Made by a program: the position numbers and the translations under genes. This document shows, in pieces, positions 1-25,258 of a DNA stretch of 64,000 nt. Below the pieces are notes generated by a model. That model made no database searches, was not told where the DNA came from, and saw nothing but the letters and a program-made list of their open reading frames with translations. Position 1 is the first letter of the stretch. Every line of letters begins with the position of its first letter. Source of the stretch: a virus; IMG/VR virus record IMGVR_UViG_3300034101_001153, positions 1 to 64,000 of that record; one strand, given 5' to 3'.

Positions 1-203
1 CTTGGTCTGGCGATCTTGGCTGGGGTGTTACTGTGAACTACCTTGCAGACAACGAGCATAAGGTTCCTGTGTATGACTTTGCACTCCGCGAGGTAACTCT
101 CTATGACTATGATTGGAAGTCGGGAGTGCTGACTGATATGATTGTCACGTTCTCGCTGAACGAGTTCATCCGTAAGTACGCTAAGACCTTGGTGGAGGTG
201 TGA
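1..203 (+). CDS. 3' end of a hypothetical protein (truncated by window edge)
   Basis: An open frame runs from the left edge to a TGA at 201-203, giving 66 residues without a start. The visible part is acidic with several aromatic residues and ends KTLVEV. I do not recognise it. The stop sits just before the SD and ATG of the next gene, so the two are probably co-transcribed. Confidence 0.6.
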   Translation, partial: WSGDLGWGVTVNYLADNEHKVPVYDFALREVTLYDYDWKSGVLTDMIVTFSLNEFIRKYAKTLVEV

Positions 204-205
204 CA

Positions 206-649
206 ATGATTGACCCTAGCATGACTGACATTCATCCTTACCCGCCAACTATGCAGGAGTTGGAGCAGAGGGTGGGTCAATCGTATACAGAGATTAAACG
301 TCTGACTTCAGAGTTGGAGACTATCACTACCGACCGTGATTTCTGGCAGGCCAAGGCTCATGAGCGGCAGTTGATGATTGACAACCTTGAGGAATACGTC
401 AAGGATCAGTATGACTACATTGATGAGAATATCTCTCAGAGTCTTGTCGATATCTTTGGTTTCAATATCACCAAGGACTACGATGTGACAATTACCGTAA
501 CGTTCTCTGGTGTTGTTACTGCACCGCTTAATTTCGATATGGATGATCTTGAGAACCATCTGAATGCCAGCCTTGACGCATCCTACTACGGAGATGTAGA
601 GGCAGACTTCTCAGAGGATCGCATGGAGATTGACTGGTCTGAGAGTTAG
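206..649 (+). CDS. Hypothetical protein with N-terminal coiled coil
   Basis: About 147 residues. I place the start at ATG 206 because GGAGG at 194-198 sits seven bases upstream; an in-frame GTG at 200 is too close. Residues 15-60 have regular Leu/Glu/Arg spacing typical of a coiled coil. The C-terminal half is acidic and beta-like, with Asp/Glu-rich runs. No family was recognised. A tRNA-Glu gene follows eight bases after the stop. Confidence 0.7.
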   Translation: MIDPSMTDIHPYPPTMQELEQRVGQSYTEIKRLTSELETITTDRDFWQAKAHERQLMIDNLEEYVKDQYDYIDENISQSLVDIFGFNITKDYDVTITVTFSGVVTAPLNFDMDDLENHLNASLDASYYGDVEADFSEDRMEIDWSES

Positions 650-656
650 TAAGGCC

Positions 657-729
657 GCTCCCATCGTCTAGAGGCCAAGGACGCCGCCCTTTCAAGGCGG
701 TAGCACGGGTTCGAATCCCGTTGGGAGTA
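657..729 (+). tRNA. tRNA-Glu (anticodon TTC)
   Basis: Full cloverleaf: seven-base acceptor stem GCTCCCA/TGGGAGT (one G-T pair), anticodon stem CCGCC/GGCGG with loop CTTTCAA, and T arm CGGG-TTCGAAT-CCCG. Discriminator is A. The 3' CCA is not encoded. Confidence 0.95.
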
Positions 730-818
730 CTGGGAGGGATGACTGAGACTGGACTCCAGTTGTCCCTCTCTTTATTTATTTAGACACGCCCGGCCCGCAA
801 GACTTAGTTTTGTCAAGT

Positions 819-850
819 GTTTACGACGATCATTTTAAAATCACGGAAAT
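819..850 (+). repeat. Two-part repeat, copy 1 (diverged)
   Basis: TTTACGA at the left and TCACGGAAAT at the right, at the spacing seen in the other copies (start to start 22 bases). It lies about 40 bases upstream of the promoter of the DUF932 gene. Consensus of the five copies: CATTACGA-N14-TCACTGAAAT. Confidence 0.55.
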
Positions 851-889
851 GTTTATCGAAAATTGATATAAATAATCTGCTAGATATTC

Positions 890-918
890 TTGAGACTGTC
901 AGACCTAGGGTGTATAGT
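890..918 (+). promoter_or_regulatory. Sigma70-type promoter for the DUF932 gene
   Basis: TTGAGA at 890-895 and TATAGT at 913-918 are separated by exactly 17 bases. Transcription would start near 925, followed by a short leader with the SD AAGGAGAA at 941-948 before ATG 953. Confidence 0.7.
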
Positions 919-952
919 TCTTCTATAAGTTCAATCAACTAAGGAGAATCAC

Positions 953-1948
953 ATGGCACACGCAGTAGAGGTTGGCGCAAACGGCGAGCAGGCTTTCGCT
1001 TCCTTCCGCGAACCAGCATGGCACGGTCTTGGCACCGTATTCTTTGAGGAGAAGTCCACCCAGGAGATGCTGGATGCGGCTTACCTGTCCAACTGGAACG
1101 TTCGCCTGGAGGCCGTTCCTTACCCTTCCACCTACAATGTCATCACACCTTCCTACATGGTCCTTCGTGACAATCCCTTCGACCAGGGTACTGATGTTCT
1201 CGCCACCGTTGGTGAGCGTTACCACGTTCTTCAGAACGAGGATCTTTTCGACTTTGGCGATGCGCTGCTTGACGGTGGTCGCTGGGAGACTGCTGGCTCT
1301 ATTCGTCAGGGTCGCGTTGTGTTCGGTTCGCTTGCGCTTGAGCGTGAGACTGTCCTTGATCCCAACGGCGTTTCGGATGTTGTGAAGTCTTACCTTCTCG
1401 TCCACACCTCGCATGACGGTTCTACCGCTGTGCAGGCTTCCATCACTCCCGTCCGCGTTGTGTGCCAGAACACTCTGAACATGGCTCTTCAGGGTGTGAA
1501 GCAGTCCTTCAAGATTCGTCACACGCAGACTGTGGGCGGTAAAGTTCTGGCTGCACGCGAGGCTCTTGCTCTCGCAAACACCTACCTGGACGAGTTCGAC
1601 AAGGAGGCTCAGGCTCTCATCACCAAGGAGATCACCAAGGCTAAGTTCGATGCCATTCTTGAGGCTGTCTACCCGCGTCCCGACAAGGATGCCAAGGGTG
1701 CCGTCAAGAAGTGGGAGACTAAGGTCGATCTGCTGGAGGAGATTTACTCTTCCGATACCACCAACATGATCGCAGGCACCGCGTGGGGTGCGTTCAATGC
1801 TCTCACGGAGCGTCTGGACTGGTTCCGCAAGGGTCGCGGCGAGCGTGGTGCTGAGAATGTTGCAGCAGCCGCTAGTGGTTTCGATCCTGTCACCAATGCG
1901 GAGAAGGGTCGTATCCTGAGGGCGGTCAAGGAGATCGCTTTCGCGTAA
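953..1948 (+). CDS. DUF932-family phage/plasmid-like protein
   Basis: 331 residues, near the usual size of the DUF932/TIGR03299 family, whose molecular role is not firmly known. The family opening (AxxREPAWHGLGT at about residues 16-28) and the central segment around VRVVCQNTLNMAL match by eye. It has its own promoter (890-918) and a strong SD, and its codon use is visibly richer in G and C than that of the small genes around it, with many GGC, CGC, CTC and ACC codons. This suggests high expression or separate acquisition. A tRNA pair follows directly. Family assignment is from remembered motifs. Confidence 0.85.
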   Translation: MAHAVEVGANGEQAFASFREPAWHGLGTVFFEEKSTQEMLDAAYLSNWNVRLEAVPYPSTYNVITPSYMVLRDNPFDQGTDVLATVGERYHVLQNEDLFDFGDALLDGGRWETAGSIRQGRVVFGSLALERETVLDPNGVSDVVKSYLLVHTSHDGSTAVQASITPVRVVCQNTLNMALQGVKQSFKIRHTQTVGGKVLAAREALALANTYLDEFDKEAQALITKEITKAKFDAILEAVYPRPDKDAKGAVKKWETKVDLLEEIYSSDTTNMIAGTAWGAFNALTERLDWFRKGRGERGAENVAAAASGFDPVTNAEKGRILRAVKEIAFA

Positions 1949-1984
1949 TCAAACATCCTGGGTATGATGTAAAACTGCCTGCAC

Positions 1985-2052
1985 GCCACCCGCGCTGGGC
2001 GCAGACGAGATTCCAACCCTTGTCGTGCAGAGTTCGATTCTTTGGGGTGGTG
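1985..2052 (+). tRNA. Probable tRNA-Trp (anticodon CCA) with minimal D arm
   Basis: Acceptor stem GCCACCC/GGGTGGT and T arm CAGAG-TTCGATT-CTTTG are clear. The anticodon loop TTCCAAC gives CCA on a stem CGAGA/CCTTG with one A-C mismatch at the loop end. Discriminator G fits bacterial tRNA-Trp. The D arm is very short (about 13 bases between acceptor and anticodon stems). Only four bases separate it from tRNA-Asp. Confidence 0.55.
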
Positions 2053-2056
2053 CTTG

Positions 2057-2129
2057 GCACTTGTAGAGTAGCGGTTATCTCGCCACCCTGTCACGGTGGA
2101 GATCGTGGGTTCGAATCCCATCAGGTGCG
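2057..2129 (+). tRNA. tRNA-Asp (anticodon GTC)
   Basis: Acceptor GCACTTG/CAGGTGC, anticodon stem CCACC/GGTGG with loop CTGTCAC, and T arm GTGGG-TTCGAAT-CCCAT (one G-T pair at its base). Discriminator G. No encoded CCA. Confidence 0.95.
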
Positions 2130-2192
2130 CTTGACAAATCCAATAAAATCGGGCCGGGCCGCAATTATTTATTCTATTACTCATTTACGATG

Positions 2193-2224
2193 CATTACGA
2201 CGATTCACTGAAATTCACTGAAAT
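2193..2224 (+). repeat. Two-part repeat, copy 2
   Basis: CATTACGA at 2193-2200 and TCACTGAAAT starting at 2215, with an extra TCACTGAAAT half-unit starting at 2205. The left unit is preceded by a near copy (CATTTACGA at 2183-2190). It lies directly upstream of a promoter-like sequence for the small-gene operon. Confidence 0.65.
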
Positions 2225-2233
2225 TCCTTGTCA

Positions 2234-2261
2234 TTGTCATACCCCTATGGTAGCGTAGTAA
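2234..2261 (+). promoter_or_regulatory. Possible promoter of the small-gene operon
   Basis: TTGTCA occurs twice in tandem (2228-2233 and 2234-2239). Sixteen bases after the second is TAGTAA; 17 bases after the first is TAGCGT. Either pair could drive the genes beginning at 2280. The -10 match is imperfect. Confidence 0.4.
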
Positions 2262-2279
2262 TACACAGAGAGGATGGAT

Positions 2280-2453
2280 ATGCCATATACACAGACTATT
2301 ATTCTACATATTACGCTTCCTGACGACCAGCCGAATCCTAAGTCGTGGGAGTGGGATGCTGAGTTGGACTTGCATCTTGTAGATGCCATTAGTGATAATG
2401 AGTTTGTCCTAGAGGATTGGCTTCTTGTCGATCAGAATGAGAGTGATGAATGA
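2280..2453 (+). CDS. Small acidic protein, first of the small-gene run
   Basis: 57 residues from ATG 2280, with an AGAGAGG SD about eight bases upstream. The opening MPYTQTIILHITLP looks like a beta strand; the rest is acidic with three Trp. Function unknown. Its TGA overlaps the start of the next gene. Confidence 0.65.
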   Translation: MPYTQTIILHITLPDDQPNPKSWEWDAELDLHLVDAISDNEFVLEDWLLVDQNESDE

Positions 2454-2623
2454 TGGACCCTAATATTGTTCTCAACCGCCTCCGCGATATCTTGACCCAA
2501 TGGGAGGAGTGGGGTACGCTAGAGGTAGATGCAGAATCTGCTATGTATGAGATTGTTGATCTCTTTCATGACCTTGACGACTGGCTATCTCAGGGTGGCT
2601 TCCGACCCAACGATTGGAGTTAG
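2450..2623 (+). CDS. Small acidic helical protein
   Basis: 57 residues, starting at ATG 2450 (or the adjacent in-frame ATG 2453), overlapping the upstream stop by four bases. The sequence has heptad-like Leu/Ile spacing and many Asp/Glu. No family recognised. Its end carries the SD (TTGGAG, 2614-2619) of the next gene. Confidence 0.65.
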   Translation: MMDPNIVLNRLRDILTQWEEWGTLEVDAESAMYEIVDLFHDLDDWLSQGGFRPNDWS

Positions 2624-2625
2624 TA

Positions 2626-2853
2626 ATGGCAACCATCACATTCTCAGTAGAACTTATCTACGAGGGAACTGGTCACTTTATGGATTTTGAGTATGACTAT
2701 GAGACTTGGGATGATATGACCCAAGAGGAGTTGGAAGCATTGGCTGACGATCTTGCTACTGGTCGTGATCCTGAGTTGTATAACGAGATCATGAATAACA
2801 TTTCTATTGTCCCCCGCCTTATTAGCATTGAGGATACTGATGAATCTGAGTAA
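2626..2853 (+). CDS. Small, very acidic protein
   Basis: 75 residues from ATG 2626, chosen over upstream TTG because TTGGAG lies seven bases before it. Roughly a quarter of the residues are Asp or Glu, with very few basic residues. A beta-strand-like opening is followed by a helical DDMTQEELEALADDL segment. This charge profile is compatible with a DNA-mimic or inhibitor protein, but nothing identifies a target. Confidence 0.65.
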   Translation: MATITFSVELIYEGTGHFMDFEYDYETWDDMTQEELEALADDLATGRDPELYNEIMNNISIVPRLISIEDTDESE

Positions 2854-3142
2854 TGCTGAGCCTGGATGCTACATTGACGGCTCCCACCGCTCCAACTTTG
2901 ATTTCATGTGCATGGTCATCGAAATGGCAGAGTCATATGGGTTTGAGATGGACTTTGATCAGTTTGTCAGGGATGTGGAGGGTATTCGTAATGATTTCTT
3001 CACAGATGATGATATCTATGACATTATGGATTCTATTGACTGGACCTATGATGATGCGCTAGACTATCTCAATACCAATACCCGCGACGGGTTTTACTGG
3101 GAAGTTATAGATCAGAGTCTATATCTTGTGGAGGAAGAGTGA
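2840..3142 (+). CDS. Small acidic hypothetical protein
   Basis: 100 residues from ATG 2840, which overlaps the end of the upstream gene by 14 bases. Rich in Asp, Phe, Tyr and Met. Its 3' end GAGGAAGAG would serve as SD for the next gene, which overlaps its stop as GTGA. No family recognised. Confidence 0.65.
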   Translation: MNLSNAEPGCYIDGSHRSNFDFMCMVIEMAESYGFEMDFDQFVRDVEGIRNDFFTDDDIYDIMDSIDWTYDDALDYLNTNTRDGFYWEVIDQSLYLVEEE

Positions 3143-3285
3143 AGCACACATTCATTGTCACAGTAGAATGCGAGAAATATACTGATTCGCATATTGTAAT
3201 GGCGAACCGTTTGGACTATGATGAGGACTACGGTTTCCCATATACCGTCGAATGGCGAGACACGCCCCTTAGGTTGGAGGACTAA
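3139..3285 (+). CDS. Small hypothetical protein (GTG start)
   Basis: 48 residues, VKHTFIVTVE... to RLED, starting at GTG 3139 that overlaps the previous TGA. Its stop TAA shares one base with the ATG of the next gene. Translational coupling with both neighbours supports it being real. Function unknown. Confidence 0.6.
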   Translation: MKHTFIVTVECEKYTDSHIVMANRLDYDEDYGFPYTVEWRDTPLRLED

Positions 3286-3536
3286 TGCAGTTTCACTATG
3301 TTGTATTCTATGACACAGATACTCAGAAGTGGGGGGTAGAGTTTGATACCGCCGCCTACTTTGCAGATGGTAATATCTATGATGATGATTCTGCTACGCA
3401 GACTGGCTATGGCTGGTTTGCTGCTGGTGATGATACGCCTTTGGAGGCGGCACTTGATGAGTCTCTAGTTAGACTTCTTGGATACATTGTAGATACTTGG
3501 CCTGCTCCTGGGGAGGTGCAAGGTGCCAATGCCTGA
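3285..3536 (+). CDS. Small acidic hypothetical protein
   Basis: 83 residues from ATG 3285 (TAATG overlap with the previous gene; TTGGAGG SD). Strongly acidic and aromatic. The opening MQFHYVVFYDTDTQKWGVEF resembles a beta hairpin. No family recognised. Confidence 0.65.
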   Translation: MQFHYVVFYDTDTQKWGVEFDTAAYFADGNIYDDDSATQTGYGWFAAGDDTPLEAALDESLVRLLGYIVDTWPAPGEVQGANA

Positions 3537-3720
3537 GCGTATCAACGCTATCAAGACTGTTACTTATGATGTTCCCGCCATTGTTGAGAGCCTAGAGCAG
3601 ATGGGCATGGAGGATATTGACTTTGACGTTGTGATGGAGTATATTCAGGAGTGGGTCTTTGAGGACTTTGGCGGGGACTCTGGAATTATCTTTCAGGATG
3701 AGAATGGGGAGGAACTATAA
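3523..3720 (+). CDS. Small acidic hypothetical protein
   Basis: 65 residues from GTG 3523, preferred over ATG 3529 because GGAGG at 3512-3516 is six bases upstream. Mostly helical prediction by eye, ending in DENGEEL. Overlaps both neighbours. Function unknown. Confidence 0.6.
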   Translation: MPMPERINAIKTVTYDVPAIVESLEQMGMEDIDFDVVMEYIQEWVFEDFGGDSGIIFQDENGEEL

Positions 3721-3899
3721 TGCCTAAGTATAGAATTAGTTTTACTACTGAGGATTTGTGGAGGCTGGACGTAGAGGCTAATACCATTGACGAGGCTATG
3801 GAAAACTTCTATAATGGTGACTACACGCACGATATGGCGGTACTTACTGAGGGTGGCTATCTTCAGGAGTCCGTTAGTATCGAACCTATGGAGGGCTAA
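3720..3899 (+). CDS. Small protein, paralogue A of a tandem pair
   Basis: 59 residues from ATG 3720, overlapping the previous TAA by one base. It opens MPKYRIS and closes GGYLQESVSIEPMEG; the protein encoded at 4038-4217 has the same length and matches over its whole length. The fold looks like beta strands around a helix (TIDEAMENFYNGDY). Function unknown. Confidence 0.7.
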   Translation: MPKYRISFTTEDLWRLDVEANTIDEAMENFYNGDYTHDMAVLTEGGYLQESVSIEPMEG

Positions 3900-4045
3900 T
3901 GAAGTACGCAGTAGCATTTGGTAATGCTTTCGATGGTCATAATTTTTATGGCCCGTTCGATTCTAGTGATGAAGCCATTGACTATGGATCTAATCGTGAA
4001 GACGGCGACTGGTTTGTTATTCCATTGGAGGTTCCTCATGCCTAA
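3899..4045 (+). CDS. Small hypothetical protein between the paralogues
   Basis: 48 residues from ATG 3899 (TAATG overlap), MKYAVAFGNAF... to LEVPHA. Rich in Asp and aromatic residues. It separates the two tandem paralogues and overlaps the second by eight bases. Function unknown. Confidence 0.6.
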   Translation: MKYAVAFGNAFDGHNFYGPFDSSDEAIDYGSNREDGDWFVIPLEVPHA

Positions 4046-4217
4046 GTATAGAATTAGTTATCAGACCGAGGACTGGTGGGACTTGTTCGTAGAGGCATAC
4101 TCTATGGATGAGGTCCTTACCAAGTTTCACAATGGGGAATATGACCACAACAGGGCCACTCTAATAGAGGGCGGCTATCTGCAAGGTTCCGTTAGTGTCG
4201 ATCCTGTGGAGGACTAA
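4038..4217 (+). CDS. Small protein, paralogue B of a tandem pair
   Basis: 59 residues from ATG 4038, with TTGGAGG upstream. It matches paralogue A at 3720-3899: shared MPKYRIS, EDxW, VEA, DE, FxNGxY and EGGYLQxSVSxxPxE. The start must be 4038, because upstream in-frame codons would extend into the neighbouring gene and lose the alignment. Confidence 0.7.
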   Translation: MPKYRISYQTEDWWDLFVEAYSMDEVLTKFHNGEYDHNRATLIEGGYLQGSVSVDPVED

Positions 4218-4570
4218 TGACTAGCATCACCATGCACCTTACTGCTAACTTCTACCCGCCGATCCCTGCTGACATTCAGATGCGCGTGCAGGAGATTTTC
4301 GATGAGTTGGAGCGTGACTCAGGCCCATATATCATAGGCTTTGCAGACGTTCCAGAGAATTGGGACTACATGTATGATGATGAGTCTGTATTTGATCGAA
4401 CATATGAGTTGCCCAATGGTGCGGTGGTGACAGGTCGCTCTCTGTGTGATGATCTGCGTCTTTGGGATGCGCTATTCTGGGACTGCTCAGAGCCAGATGA
4501 GTTGTGGGCAGACTACGAGCGGGAGCAGAAAGAATATGCAGGCCAACTATCATTCTGGACGGCGGAGTAA
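4217..4570 (+). CDS. Acidic hypothetical protein
   Basis: 117 residues from ATG 4217 (TAATG overlap). Rich in Asp, Glu, Trp and Tyr, with a helical C-terminal tail ending in SFWTAE. No family recognised. Among the larger members of this small-gene run. Confidence 0.65.
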   Translation: MTSITMHLTANFYPPIPADIQMRVQEIFDELERDSGPYIIGFADVPENWDYMYDDESVFDRTYELPNGAVVTGRSLCDDLRLWDALFWDCSEPDELWADYEREQKEYAGQLSFWTAE

Positions 4571-4668
4571 TGGACAACTGTGATCGTTGCTATTCCTATG
4601 AGGAAGATGATATCCTTGCCATGAACAAAGGTATCTGCGAGTCGTGTAGAGTGGAGGAGATTGTCTAA
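4570..4668 (+). CDS. Mini zinc-ribbon protein
   Basis: 32 residues from ATG 4570 (overlaps the previous TAA). Two CxxC knuckles, CDRC near residue 4 and CESC near residue 24, are enough to bind one zinc ion. Its GGAGGAG end provides the SD for the next gene. Function unknown. Confidence 0.6.
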   Translation: MDNCDRCYSYEEDDILAMNKGICESCRVEEIV

Positions 4669-4889
4669 TGTCTAATACAATCCATTTCTATGAGATTGAC
4701 GGTGGCCCATCAGGTATCTGGTGGGAGGGTAGGGTAGATGATGATGGTCCCTACATTGGTATGTTCGATAATCAGGTGGACCTAATGCGTATTGCTAGTA
4801 TTCTCAGTCTTGCTAATCATCCTATCCGCTTTCACACACAGGCTGAGTATGAGTTGGATTCTATGCTAGAGGAGATTCTAGGAGGATGA
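4668..4889 (+). CDS. Small hypothetical protein
   Basis: 73 residues from ATG 4668 (TAATG overlap, GGAGGAG SD). The opening MSNTIHFYEIDGG looks beta-rich and the C-terminal half helical. Its terminal codons carry the SD for the membrane protein that follows. Function unknown. Confidence 0.65.
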   Translation: MSNTIHFYEIDGGPSGIWWEGRVDDDGPYIGMFDNQVDLMRIASILSLANHPIRFHTQAEYELDSMLEEILGG

Positions 4890-5050
4890 TAGGTAGATCA
4901 TATAGTATCGGAAGGCGTGTAGAACGTCATACTGGTGGCGGTGGTCGTATGAAACCAACCAACTTCTCTGAAACAGTATTTGGTATCTTTATGCTACTTG
5001 CTATCCTATTTATTCTTGGTTCATGCATTGCTCCGTTTGTAGGTGATTAG
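4886..5050 (+). CDS. Small single-pass membrane protein
   Basis: 54 residues from ATG 4886, with GGAGG just upstream and an ATGA overlap with the previous gene. A basic N-terminus is followed by one strongly hydrophobic segment at about residues 32-50 (FGIFMLLAILFILG). It could act at the host membrane, but nothing more specific is visible. Confidence 0.6.
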   Translation: MIGRSYSIGRRVERHTGGGGRMKPTNFSETVFGIFMLLAILFILGSCIAPFVGD

Positions 5051-5398
5051 ATGAATAAAAGAGATTATCTTAGAAGTCTTGGTTTTGAGGTCGGTGAGCG
5101 AGGCAGGCTATCTGCTGAGATGCTAGAGGCTCTTAAAGACTTTTATGAAGATGCTACACAAAATAATAAACCACAGAGGAAGATTCTTCCTGCATCTGTC
5201 AAGATGCGAGATGATAGAACCTACATGGTGGAGTTGCAAGATGGTGGCAGAGTAGAAATGGGATTCTGTTCATCTTGTAAAGAATCTATGCTCTACTGTC
5301 ATTGCGACGGTGGCCCAAAACCACCCTCGTACCTTGACTCTCCCATAATAAACTGGTATCCTGTAACTTCCCATAAGGAGGAACATGCTAGAGGATAA
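5051..5398 (+). CDS. Protein with Lsr2-like DNA-binding motif and a zinc knuckle
   Basis: 115 residues. Residues 8-27 (LGFEVGERGRLSAEMLEALK) resemble the C-terminal domain of actinobacterial Lsr2, in which an RGR loop inserts into the AT-rich minor groove and is followed by a helix starting with [IV]PAxxxxA. Further on is CSSC with a CHC about nine residues later, a possible zinc site. Phage Lsr2-type proteins can interfere with host xenogeneic silencing. That role is inference here, and the match is from memory. Confidence 0.6.
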   Translation: MNKRDYLRSLGFEVGERGRLSAEMLEALKDFYEDATQNNKPQRKILPASVKMRDDRTYMVELQDGGRVEMGFCSSCKESMLYCHCDGGPKPPSYLDSPIINWYPVTSHKEEHARG

Positions 5399-5603
5399 GA
5401 TAGCACGCAAAATGGCAGACATGTTCTCAGATAGTAGAATCAACGTCTACGTCTTAGCGGCTATGACACGTAGGTATCTATCTCCACATATGAATAGAGT
5501 TCTACAAGAATGGTGGGACTTGCATACAGCAGATGCCAGCACGTATGTCGATAGTGGACAGAGGCAACTGTTTGATGTTGGAGCGTATGACGTTCATCCA
5601 TAG
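5385..5603 (+). CDS. Small hypothetical protein, last of the rightward operon
   Basis: 72 residues from ATG 5385, with AAGGAGG upstream and 14 bases of overlap with the Lsr2-like gene. Helical, with a basic first half. A strong GC-rich hairpin follows four bases after the stop and probably ends the operon. Function unknown. Confidence 0.65.
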   Translation: MLEDKIARKMADMFSDSRINVYVLAAMTRRYLSPHMNRVLQEWWDLHTADASTYVDSGQRQLFDVGAYDVHP

Positions 5604-5607
5604 TTGA

Positions 5608-5635
5608 TGTGGGGGCGGTGAAAATCGCCCCCACA
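5608..5635 (+). terminator. GC-rich hairpin after the rightward operon
   Basis: Perfect 10-bp stem TGTGGGGGCG/CGCCCCCACA with an eight-base loop, directly after the last + strand gene. There is no T-run, which fits the U-poor terminators common in actinobacteria. It could work from either side. Confidence 0.6.
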
Positions 5636-5759
5636 AATACTTGACATGGGCACGTTTGGCGTGCCGGGTTTTCCACAAGTTATCCACAGGTGGGTATTAA
5701 GAACCAAATAAAAAATCTCACTGAAATTCCGGGACAACTTAAAAATATAATTTAATAGA

Positions 5760-5791
5760 CATTACGAACGTGTGAAAAAAATCACTGGAAA
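5760..5791 (+). repeat. Two-part repeat, copy 3
   Basis: CATTACGA at 5760-5767 and TCACTGGAAA from 5782, start-to-start 22 bases. An isolated right half TCACTGAAATTCC is at 5718-5730, identical to the right end of copy 2. Confidence 0.65.
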
Positions 5792-5808
5792 AGAAAGGCT
5801 TCAAGGAA

Positions 5809-5886
5809 ATGATTGAGTTCCTCTTAGTGTTTATAGGTATAGCGCTATTGTTGTCAATGATGCAACCACCACCGCCCCGCAAATAG
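5809..5886 (+). CDS. Possible 25-residue membrane peptide
   Basis: ATG 5809 opens a 25-codon frame, MIEFLLVFIGIALLLSM followed by QPPPPRK, with an AGAAAGG about ten bases upstream. One hydrophobic segment would span a membrane; the end is Pro-rich and basic. It is the only plausible gene in the origin-like region. The short length makes it uncertain. Confidence 0.35.
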   Translation: MIEFLLVFIGIALLLSMMQPPPPRK

Positions 5887-6006
5887 CGGCGGCGGTAGGG
5901 AAAACTCCTATCAATATATCCCCCTATAATATATATACAAATATCCCTAGATTGTCAGAACTTTTCTGACTTTTTCCGGGATATTTTGTTATTTTTCTAG
6001 AAAAAA

Positions 6007-6040
6007 CATTACGAACCCAACAAAAAAAATCACTGAAATT
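6007..6040 (+). repeat. Two-part repeat, copy 4
   Basis: CATTACGA at 6007-6014 and TCACTGAAATT from 6030. Here the spacing is 23 bases, with an A-run between the halves. Confidence 0.65.
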
Positions 6041-6124
6041 TGGGGGGAATTTCCCTATGTGTGGATATCCTGTGGATATCTCTGGCATATGTTATAAAAA
6101 TGTTATAGAAAATACTTGAAAAAG

Positions 6125-6156
6125 TATTACGAAGGGGTGTGATATATCACTCCATA
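6125..6156 (+). repeat. Two-part repeat, copy 5 (diverged right half)
   Basis: TATTACGA at 6125-6132 and TCACTCCATA from 6147, start-to-start 22 bases. The left half is well kept, the right half only partly. Confidence 0.5.
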
Positions 6157-6320
6157 TCTCAATATAATAACATTTTAATCTCAATATGTATCTATATTTA
6201 TAGACATATGTGTCTATTGACTCATATTGTGGACAACCTGTGGATAACTTTGATACCCTTGTGGATAACCTGTCATCCTATTACGTGCAAATGATAGTGT
6301 TCATTGTGTGATCTTTAAGA

Positions 6321-6470
6321 CTACTCTGTGTCAGAGAAATACTCTTCATACTCACACACCATACACTTTCTTCCTATCTCTTCTATTATTCCTTTATAGA
6401 GTATTTCTTCTATAGGGAGAAGGATATGTTCTCCTGTACCACCGCCCGAACAGGGACTGTCGCTTATCAT
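6321..6470 (-). CDS. Small hypothetical protein
   Basis: 49 residues from ATG at 6468-6470. A GGAGG six bases upstream decides this start; a longer upstream frame would run through a hairpin and the previous gene. Contains a CMVC motif near the acidic C-terminus. Last gene of the leftward block before the origin-like region. Function unknown. Confidence 0.6.
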   Translation of the reverse strand: MISDSPCSGGGTGEHILLPIEEILYKGIIEEIGRKCMVCEYEEYFSDTE

Positions 6471-6493
6471 AAATCCTCCTAGGTAAATAGAAA

Positions 6494-6511
6494 CGGCTGC
6501 CGTAGCAGCCG
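6494..6511 (-). terminator. Intrinsic terminator of the leftward operon
   Basis: Perfect seven-base stem CGGCTGC/GCAGCCG with a four-base loop. On the - strand it is followed by TTTCTATTT. It lies just downstream of the gene ending at 6536. Confidence 0.55.
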
Positions 6512-6535
6512 CTCTATATGGTAAAAATTTGTTGC

Positions 6536-6811
6536 TTATCGCTTGGGGAAAAATACTCCAGCCCATACTGCTTTCTTTACTTCTGGATTCTTCCATTCTT
6601 CTGGGATCATGCTCTCAGCGTTTAATGCTCTTGCTCTACGCATAATGTGTTCTTTAACGTCCTGTCTAGCACCACCGCGCCCCCATGATCTAATGGCATT
6701 CATTAAGTCTTCTCTGTTTGCAATTGGATAAGATCCATCTGGCATAGCAGTTCCAGAAGAAGCCATTCTTCTACGTTGCTCTTGGGAAAACTCTCTCTTC
6801 ATCATATCCAT
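6536..6811 (-). CDS. Small protein of a widespread phage/actinobacterial type (DUF6582-like)
   Basis: 91 residues from ATG 6811; GAGGAGG lies eight bases upstream, so an earlier GTG at 6820 is less likely. The pattern RRRMASSGTAMPDGSYPIAN, then AIRSWGR and HIMRRARAL, is one I associate with small proteins found in many phages and sometimes fused to head proteases. The biochemical role is not known to me. Helical and basic. Confidence 0.65.
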   Translation of the reverse strand: MDMMKREFSQEQRRRMASSGTAMPDGSYPIANREDLMNAIRSWGRGGARQDVKEHIMRRARALNAESMIPEEWKNPEVKKAVWAGVFFPKR

Positions 6812-6866
6812 TATGTACACCTCCTCATACGTTTAATTCGTATACTTTCTAATAATTATTATACTC

Positions 6867-7055
6867 TTAAACGCCCCTGCGATACTTCCTACGAATCTGA
6901 GGCTTGACTCCAGCCTTAACGCATTGTTGGTAGGCTACTCCGTACTTCTTTTCATTGCTCTCTCCAGCCTTGCCACCGACCGCCTTACGAACTTCACCAA
7001 TGGTTCTGTTTAATTCGCGGATTAGGGCTTCAGCCTCTTCATTGGGTACTGACAT
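6867..7055 (-). CDS. Small basic hypothetical protein
   Basis: 62 residues, ATG 7055 overlapping the previous TAA by one base, with AAGGAAGG upstream. Lys/Arg-rich, ending KPQIRRKYRRGV; a helical first half has regular Leu/Ile spacing. Could bind nucleic acid. No family recognised. Confidence 0.6.
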   Translation of the reverse strand: MSVPNEEAEALIRELNRTIGEVRKAVGGKAGESNEKKYGVAYQQCVKAGVKPQIRRKYRRGV

Positions 7056-7207
7056 TATTCAAACCTTCCTTCATCGATATATTTCTTATGCTTTTCTTTA
7101 CATGGTTCGCACCATTGCTTTGGTAGGTACTTCCTTTTTGATACTGACCATTTAATTAAACAATCATACTCACTATGCTTTTTTGCTACGCATGTACTCT
7201 TTGCCAT
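7055..7207 (-). CDS. Small basic protein with CxxC
   Basis: 50 residues, MAKSTCVAKKHS to EGRFE. Four Cys (including CEPC) and two His in a Lys-rich sequence suggest a zinc-binding nucleic-acid protein. It lies nine bases after the GMP reductase-like gene and is coupled to the next gene by TAATG. Function unknown. Confidence 0.6.
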   Translation of the reverse strand: MAKSTCVAKKHSEYDCLIKWSVSKRKYLPKQWCEPCKEKHKKYIDEGRFE

Positions 7208-7215
7208 AATAAATC

Positions 7216-8253
7216 TCAATTTCTTTTAGAATGTGGTTTGTTCTCAGCAAGTGCGCTATGAGATATTGTAATATACTGTGCCTCTTTATACAAGGAATAA
7301 AGGTTATCAACACCTGAGTAGGATAGACCGCTTCCAATGCCGCCAGCCCATTGTTTGAGTACGGAGGACACTGGTCCATTGTATGGGACCATAGTACTCA
7401 CACCTTCAATAACGGATACTGAGCCTCTACCCTCTTTCTGAGCGGCTTCTGAGGCCATACCACGGAGTTTTTTAAATCTCTCCCCATCGATATTAATAAT
7501 AGATCCTGGCGTTTCTTCTGTGCCAGCCAATGCAGATCCAAGCATGACTACATCTGCTCCTGCGGCAAAAGCCTTTACAGCATCACCAGAAGTTTTAATT
7601 CCACCATCAGCAATAATGGATGGACCGTATCCTCTTTCCACTCTTTCACGAATATCCATAATCGATGCAAGAGTGGGCATACCATGACCACTAACAAGTC
7701 TGGTAGTGCAAAGACCGCCACCACCAATACCAACACGAACAGAGTCTACGCCAGCATCTGCAAGCGACATGTATCCATGATATGTAGATATGTTTCCAGC
7801 CATGATATGAACATCTGGGAAGTGATCCTTTAGTTGCCTGACTGCGTTAATCGCATACTGACCGTGACCATTTGCAGTATCCACTAGGAGTATCCGAACG
7901 CCAGCATCAACTAGTTTCTGAGCATGATCCATAAAACCATTATTAGATGCAATAGCAACGCCAAAAACAATATTGTTTTCTACAAGAGTTTTTGCTTGCC
8001 AAAGTTGCTTATCATATGACATATACCTATGAAGAATTCCTAGGCCACCAGCAGCAGCCATAGACATACACATATCTCTTCCACAGATAGTATCCATGGG
8101 AGCAGCAATAATAGGAAGTGACAGTGGAATTAATACAGAGTCACAGCCGATGGTAGCGGACATATCTACCGCGCTTCTTGACATGATATCTGAGTCTTGT
8201 GGAACCAATAATATATCATCGAAACACAAGATGTTTCTTTTATACTCTTTCAA
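7216..8253 (-). CDS. IMP dehydrogenase / GMP reductase family enzyme
   Basis: 345 residues, the length of GMP reductase (GuaC) and of IMP dehydrogenases lacking CBS domains. It acts on purine nucleotides in the cytoplasm, either IMP to XMP or GMP to IMP. Visible: N-terminal FDDILLVP, the PMDT segment, the phosphate/catalytic loop GIGGGGLCTTR with catalytic Cys182, ADGGIK near 216-220, and MLGSALAGTEETPG near 237-250. The C-terminal VPYNG..GGIGSGLSYSG resembles both subfamilies. The ordinary GPGS of the loop is GGGG here. Reaction direction cannot be settled by eye. Own promoter upstream. Confidence 0.85.
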   Translation of the reverse strand: MKEYKRNILCFDDILLVPQDSDIMSRSAVDMSATIGCDSVLIPLSLPIIAAPMDTICGRDMCMSMAAAGGLGILHRYMSYDKQLWQAKTLVENNIVFGVAIASNNGFMDHAQKLVDAGVRILLVDTANGHGQYAINAVRQLKDHFPDVHIMAGNISTYHGYMSLADAGVDSVRVGIGGGGLCTTRLVSGHGMPTLASIMDIRERVERGYGPSIIADGGIKTSGDAVKAFAAGADVVMLGSALAGTEETPGSIINIDGERFKKLRGMASEAAQKEGRGSVSVIEGVSTMVPYNGPVSSVLKQWAGGIGSGLSYSGVDNLYSLYKEAQYITISHSALAENKPHSKRN

Positions 8254-24993: not shown

Positions 24994-25258
24994 TACTGAT
25001 CCTTGACGATATTGATTCCCAAATATCTGTAGATTTATGTGCATTTCTTACATTGTCTACTTTACCATCTATGAGGAATATTCCTCCCCATACCCCCCAA
25101 GATTCTGTAGAAACACCATACTCAAAACATTCTTTAATAACTGGGCAGGCTAAACACATTCTATCTATTTCAATTGATACGTCAATATCGTTTTCATAAT
25201 TATCAAAATAATTTTCAGTATCTACTCCAGCGCACAGTGCATCACTTAGCCATAACAT
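24986..25258 (-). CDS. WhiB-like iron-sulphur transcription regulator
   Basis: 90 residues. Cys9, Cys35, Cys38 and Cys44 give the C-Xn-CxxCxxxxxC arrangement for a 4Fe-4S cluster, followed by the GVWGG turn at residues 55-59. WhiB proteins occur in actinobacteria and their phages, bind the principal sigma factor, and modulate host promoters. The basic C-terminal tail usual for DNA contact is weak here. Overlaps the gene on each side. Confidence 0.85.
   Translation of the reverse strand: MLWLSDALCAGVDTENYFDNYENDIDVSIEIDRMCLACPVIKECFEYGVSTESWGVWGGIFLIDGKVDNVRNAHKSTDIWESISSRISND

Follow-up and report, generated by a model that had tools for sequence, protein, structure and literature searches.

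The stretch analysed here (the window) comprises the first 64,000 nucleotides of the virus record IMGVR_UViG_3300034101_001153 and includes several copies of a bipartite repeat, TTACGA-N13..15-TCACTGAAAT, located next to early-gene promoters and within an origin-like region. The source record consists of 96,176 bases with 38.9% GC and, because its ends overlap by 69 bases, is very probably a complete phage genome. Within the window copies start at 819, 2183, 2193, 5697, 5760, 6007 and 6125, and extra ones lie beyond it near 92,861, 94,081, 95,103 and 95,115; the genome-wide number is about 11, degenerate copies included, and only one strand is used. The initial annotation had listed five copies (819, 2193, 5760, 6007 and 6125). 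All of these are present on the plus strand, in DNA that is noncoding apart from trivial open reading frames (ORFs), and their halves start 22-23 bases apart as described, but the list lacked the overlapping copy at 2183, the TTAAGA copy at 5697-5727 and the four copies outside the window.

The first copy (819..850, plus strand, as are all the following) reads GTTTACGA-N14-TCACGGAAAT and is situated upstream of the promoter of a DUF932 gene. The second (2183..2214) shares 22 bases with the third (2193..2224), a perfect copy in which TCACTGAAAT is doubled at a 10-bp period. The four remaining copies belong to the origin-like region: a degenerate TTAAGA-N15-TCACTGAAAT (5697..5727), a copy with a Crp-like TGTGA-N6-TCACT in its spacer and the string TAGACATTACGA that is common to the orthologous copies of relatives (5760..5791), a copy whose N15 spacer includes an A8 tract (6007..6039), and a weak copy with an intact left half, the palindrome GTGATATATCAC as spacer and TCACTCCATA as right half (6125..6156). 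The uniform N14 spacer proposed before holds at 819, 2193, 5760 and 6125 but not at 6007, and the conservation of both halves needs qualification at 819, with its variant reading, and at 6125, where the right half is cut to TCACT. When the full 32-mer was searched with up to 3 mismatches, the window gave four matches (one overlapping another) against a mean of 0.07 in shuffled sequence, and none of 100 shuffles reached four, so that the shuffling comparison suggested in the initial annotation came out in favor of the repeat. Across the whole genome the repeat pattern occurs seven times in the forward and never in the reverse orientation, and the reversed control pattern is absent.

Two of the copies named earlier precede promoters and three flank DnaA boxes, as had been noted. 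The first of these promoters, TGTCAGACCTAGGGTGTATAGT (897..918, plus strand), combines a -26 element with a TAnnnT -10; it lies 56 bp downstream of the TCAC half of the 819 copy and serves the gene of a 331-amino-acid DUF932 protein (953..1948, plus strand; PF06067, E 5.8e-52). The second, TGTCATACCCCTATGGTAGCGT (2235..2256, plus strand), has TCAC halves 20 and 30 bp upstream. Both represent an element, TGTCAGACCcc-N-TGnTAnnnT, that lies downstream of most early repeat copies; besides the variant at 897, the genome holds 11 canonical versions, all of them on the plus strand and within or adjacent to the early block. The resulting array covers the early genes at 91,484-95,743 of this genome and at 897-2256 of the window. 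A further element recurs 30-60 bp upstream of the repeat, promoter-type copies included; it comprises CTTGACA and a core rich in GC (GGCCCGGCAC), often together with TTGTCAAG (2130-2165 and 5640-5670 in the window; 92,795-92,845 and 94,027-94,077 in the genome). At 2130..2165 (plus strand) the GC-rich part reads GGGCCGGGCC, and the element may be a terminator that ends the gene before it, or a site of another kind.

The origin-like region (5604..6320) is a noncoding stretch of 717 bases at which the coding strand and the GC skew switch, with the cumulative skew maximum at 5862. Between 5669 and 6268 it contains seven DnaA boxes (1 mismatch or none), which form the densest cluster of the genome: TTTTCCACA and TTATCCACA on the plus strand (5669..5688), and on the minus strand ATATCCACA twice (6060..6079) and TTGTCCACA, TTATCCACA and TTATCCACA (6228..6268). 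The repeat copies at 5697, 5760, 6007 and 6125 are interspersed with these boxes. As the GC skew follows the coding strand in this genome, its switch is not independent evidence of an origin; judged by its layout, the region is a probable replication origin. Several origin copies directly precede small ORFs. One such ORF, right after a repeat copy at 5809-5886, may encode a 25-codon membrane peptide (MIEFLLVFIGIALLLSMMQPPPPRK), and similar small ORFs seem to follow in G002 and G012.

Both the repeat and the promoter element recur in related viruses. A scan of IMG/VR with TTACGA-N13..17-TCACTGAAAT returned 74 stretches, which were sorted by context. Many single matches of the collection scans were chance occurrences in coding sequence and were discarded; 16 further IMG/VR records form a coherent group in which the noncoding motif adjoins the promoter element or DnaA boxes. 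Counts for relatives refer to 17 records, this genome (G000) included, with the chance matches in coding DNA removed. The exact 12-base core pattern is present in 17/17 of them and its reversed control in 0/17, while the relaxed motif occurs 112 times on the early-gene strand versus 4 times on the other; by context, 62 copies are promoter-type and 49 are not. The origin copy marked by TAGACATTACGA can be aligned across six records as an ortholog, and its spacer passes from GTGAAAAAAATCACTGG in this phage via ATGAAAAAAATCACTG to TTCAAAAAAAATCACTGG. The nearest cultured relatives are Streptomyces phages of the Stanwilliamsviridae, Samisti12 and Wakanda (56% identity in the DnaE polymerase, 56-57% in the DUF932 protein), and we infer an actinobacterial host, possibly one from freshwater. 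The repeat is best described as a genuine regulatory site, presumably bound by a protein, in a group of uncultured actinobacterial viruses.

The promoter element resembles the published consensus of the actinobacterial DNA-damage (RecA-NDp) promoters, tTGTCRgtg-8nt-TAnnnT (PMC5656591). These are activated by PafBC, in which PafB binds the -26 motif on sigma-A RNA polymerase, a mechanism named sigma adaptation and triggered by single-stranded DNA (PMC11804915). Across the 17 records TGTCR-N8-TGnTAnnnT has 159 forward matches and 7 reverse ones, and altering the spacer by 1-2 reduces the matches to 0-5, that is, to background. Some relatives read TGTCGGTGG-N-TGnTAnnnT, with literal TGTCGGTGG or TGTCAGTGG in G009 and G013; the gtg after TGTCR is found in these two and in many other viral contigs, while this phage mostly has ACC. 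Agreement in both sequence and exact spacing places the core of the element in this promoter class, and the gtg part in relatives only. Judged by sequence, the element is a PafBC/RecA-NDp-type -26/-10 promoter with predicted start sites and presumed dependence on PafBC. The earlier reading of the repeats as unusual promoters is correct to the extent that the core element downstream is unusual; the repeat itself is not that core.

Same-strand arrays of TGTCR-N8-TGnTAnnnT were also observed in many other viral contigs (L251, L315, L263, L301, L241, L259, L293 and others), with up to 16 in 13 kb. Some further array-bearing viral contigs are devoid of the repeat, and no Crp-like sites were found in several array contigs of about 45% GC (L251, L315, L263, L296). 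When GTDB genomes were scanned for TGTCAGACCCYTATGNTANNNT to find the host, four matches emerged, none of them in Actinobacteria, and all but L163 look like chance. L163 (PBOB01000081.1, from an Acidiferrobacteraceae metagenome-assembled genome) carries six same-strand PafBC-type promoters in 8 kb and looks like an actinophage contig misbinned into a proteobacterial genome. No description of phages with PafBC-type promoters was found in the literature searched.

The arrangement of repeat and promoter follows the helical period. The distance from the TCAC half to the TGTC downstream is 10, 20-23, 32-34, 42-43 or 52 bp in 19 promoter clusters, a phasing matched in 0/5000 uniform draws. Full TGTGA-N6-TCACA sites (35 clusters) display the same periodicity, with peaks at 23, 33, 43 and 53 and minor values at 27-28 and 38. 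An unbiased test over all 336 sufficiently frequent 5-mers, in 237 clusters made at 50% identity, ranked TCACA first, CACAC third, ATCAC fourth, TACGA sixth and TTACG seventh. The repeat therefore occupies one helical face upstream of the promoter, as a Crp/GlxR operator does, and this phasing indicates that a protein bound there would probably approach the promoter complex from a single side of the DNA. Placing the -10 at -12 to -7 puts the palindrome centers near -41, -52, -64, -74 and -84, positions close to those of Crp at class II and class I promoters in E. coli, with the start sites here being predicted ones.

The sequence of the site points to the same family. The Crp/GlxR consensus is TGTGA-N6-TCACA (PMC4254451, PMC4005916), and full TGTGA-N6-TCAC palindromes precede early promoters in G001, G003, G006, G007, G009, G013, G015 and G016; several of these palindromes follow TTACGA, as in TTACGAGGATGTGATTTTTCTCACAGGAAT, and in relatives a full palindrome often makes up the spacer of the repeat. 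Among 44 distinct copies, the best fit of TGTGA is at the exact palindromic offset of -11 (2.16/5, versus about 1.1 at most other offsets). The window copies do not contain the full palindrome, and a left arm is present at some sites only (5760 and, outside the window, 94079). The appearance is that of a Crp-type site from which most of the left arm has been lost and which bears an additional TTACGA half.

With regard to the binding protein, neither a Crp-type helix-turn-helix gene nor a WYL (PafBC-type) gene was found in the 17 phage records, which makes a host protein likelier than a phage one. A MerR-type protein, considered as a binder together with phage Crp and WYL proteins, occurs only in G000 and weakly in G003, and these phage candidates were set aside, as was an RNA element, since Rfam detected just two tRNAs in window positions 1-8000. 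The suggestion of a phage regulator site is accordingly sustained with respect to a cis-acting regulator site, with a phage-encoded binder being the less likely case.

The explanation that we favor, at about even confidence, is that the repeat is the operator of a host Crp/GlxR-family regulator, or of a close derivative of that protein, on PafBC-type early promoters and at the origin. The site would be an extended one-armed form, consisting of TTACGA, an A-rich spacer (a decayed TGTGA arm plus N6) and a strong TCACTGAAAT arm. At the early genes the regulator would sit on one helix face, one to five turns upstream of the PafBC-type promoter (TGTCR -26, TAnnnT -10), and would probably aid RNA polymerase and PafBC in starting transcription. 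The same site among the DnaA boxes, where the gene strands diverge, would likely regulate origin transcription or initiation. Several observations weigh against this explanation. Most copies in this phage have no recognisable TGTGA arm, the left-arm match is weak at TCAC[TG]G sites (1.78/5), and the score is also raised at offset -9 (1.77). We know of no Crp site that includes a fixed TTACGA half, and a spacer range of 12 to 15 is odd for a single rigid dimer. No PafBC-type promoter lies downstream of the origin copies; two copies are off phase, that at 819, whose distance of 56 bp to the promoter falls outside the main classes, and that at 92.8 kb (39 bp); and the promoter clusters may share ancestry. 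Finally, in eight records the promoter copies are accompanied by an early-type phage WhiB gene, an observation compatible with an alternative in which WhiB assists.

In that alternative, which we consider unlikely, a phage-encoded regulator binds the repeat, and the likeness to Crp is a resemblance only. The early WhiB-like protein, acting together with sigma-A, is the main candidate encoded by the phage; a small DNA-binding protein that escaped recognition is another. The early WhiB gene (E about 2e-17 or better) is found in G000, G002, G004, G005, G008, G010, G011 and G017, all with promoter-type copies, and not in G009, G013, G015 and G016, where full Crp palindromes are found at the promoters instead; moreover, Crp alone explains neither the TTACGA half nor the strict TCACTGAAAT arm. 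However, G018 to G021 have promoter-type copies with no early-type WhiB found (possibly because they are fragments), repeat copies are also located at the origin of phages devoid of early WhiB, and to our knowledge WhiB proteins do not read a 30-bp bipartite site. This genome has two WhiB-family genes, one in the early block (93,830-94,021, plus strand) and one on the late strand in the window (25,079-25,252, minus strand).

The other alternatives take up readings of the initial annotation. It appears improbable that the repeats are iterons of the origin, bound by a phage initiator with an additional autoregulatory role at the early promoters: the copies among the DnaA boxes are conserved as a set in many records, include the alignable orthologous copy and lie at the skew and coding switch, but there are just three or four of them, their spacing (5697, 5760, 6007, 6125) is irregular instead of tandem and regular, and no initiator gene was identified. 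The motif is also at least as frequent at early promoters, where it is helically phased, so that iterons do not serve as the principal explanation. Least probable is a core promoter for an alternative sigma factor, with TTACGA as -35 and TCACTG as -10. Two conserved halves with a spacer varying by one or two are sigma-promoter-like, and some origin copies are followed closely by a ribosome-binding site and small ORF; yet TCACTG is like no -10 element known to us, most early copies have a separate and better promoter downstream, and the helical phasing to that promoter, for which a sigma factor gives no reason, disfavors this reading.

It is conceivable, although we put this forward tentatively, that host DNA-damage (PafBC-type) promoters drive the whole early program of a large group of uncultured actinophages and that a Crp/GlxR-like site, employed at the phage origin as well, gates them, with early expression and the start of replication set by host single-stranded-DNA-damage and cyclic AMP (cAMP) signals. 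Single-stranded DNA is what activates PafBC (PMC11804915). With the PafBC promoter copied at its early genes, a phage would sense whatever DNA damage its own infection may produce and would layer on this a second input, probably linked to cAMP. The placement of the repeat suggests that these viruses connect their first genes to host alarm circuits. The two elements also provide a DNA signature for spotting early regions and probable origins in uncultured actinophages, and promoter constructs are directly testable.

Among known systems, Wakanda likewise has a noncoding DnaA-box cluster near 119 kb (L160 18,768-20,141, a gap at about 119-120 kb with clustered TTATCCACA boxes), which suggests a DnaA-box origin common to the family, but the regions checked in the Stanwilliamsviridae Streptomyces phages yielded no copy of the repeat and no PafBC-type promoter array. 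L5-type stoperators and cluster K start-associated repeats are also short one-strand repeats at many noncoding sites of actinophages, whereas the present repeat is bipartite and tied to promoters in helical phase. RecA-NDp/PafBC promoters share TGTCR at exactly N11 from TAnnnT, and the literal TGTCGGTG in relatives (PMC5656591); here they form arrays of about 9-18 on phage early regions instead of serving host repair genes, and in this phage they include an extended TG before the -10 and mostly ACC for gtg. Crp/GlxR operators are matched by the full palindromes of the relatives, which have equal promoter position and helical phasing, and in this phage by the right arm TCAC, mostly kept, with TGTGA in two copies (5760 and 94079). 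They differ in the extra TTACGA half 12-15 bp before TCAC, the one-armed A-tract form and the extended TCACTGAAAT right arm; because the window copies do not contain the palindrome, the repeat is described here as probably working like a Crp/GlxR operator and not as a member of that class.

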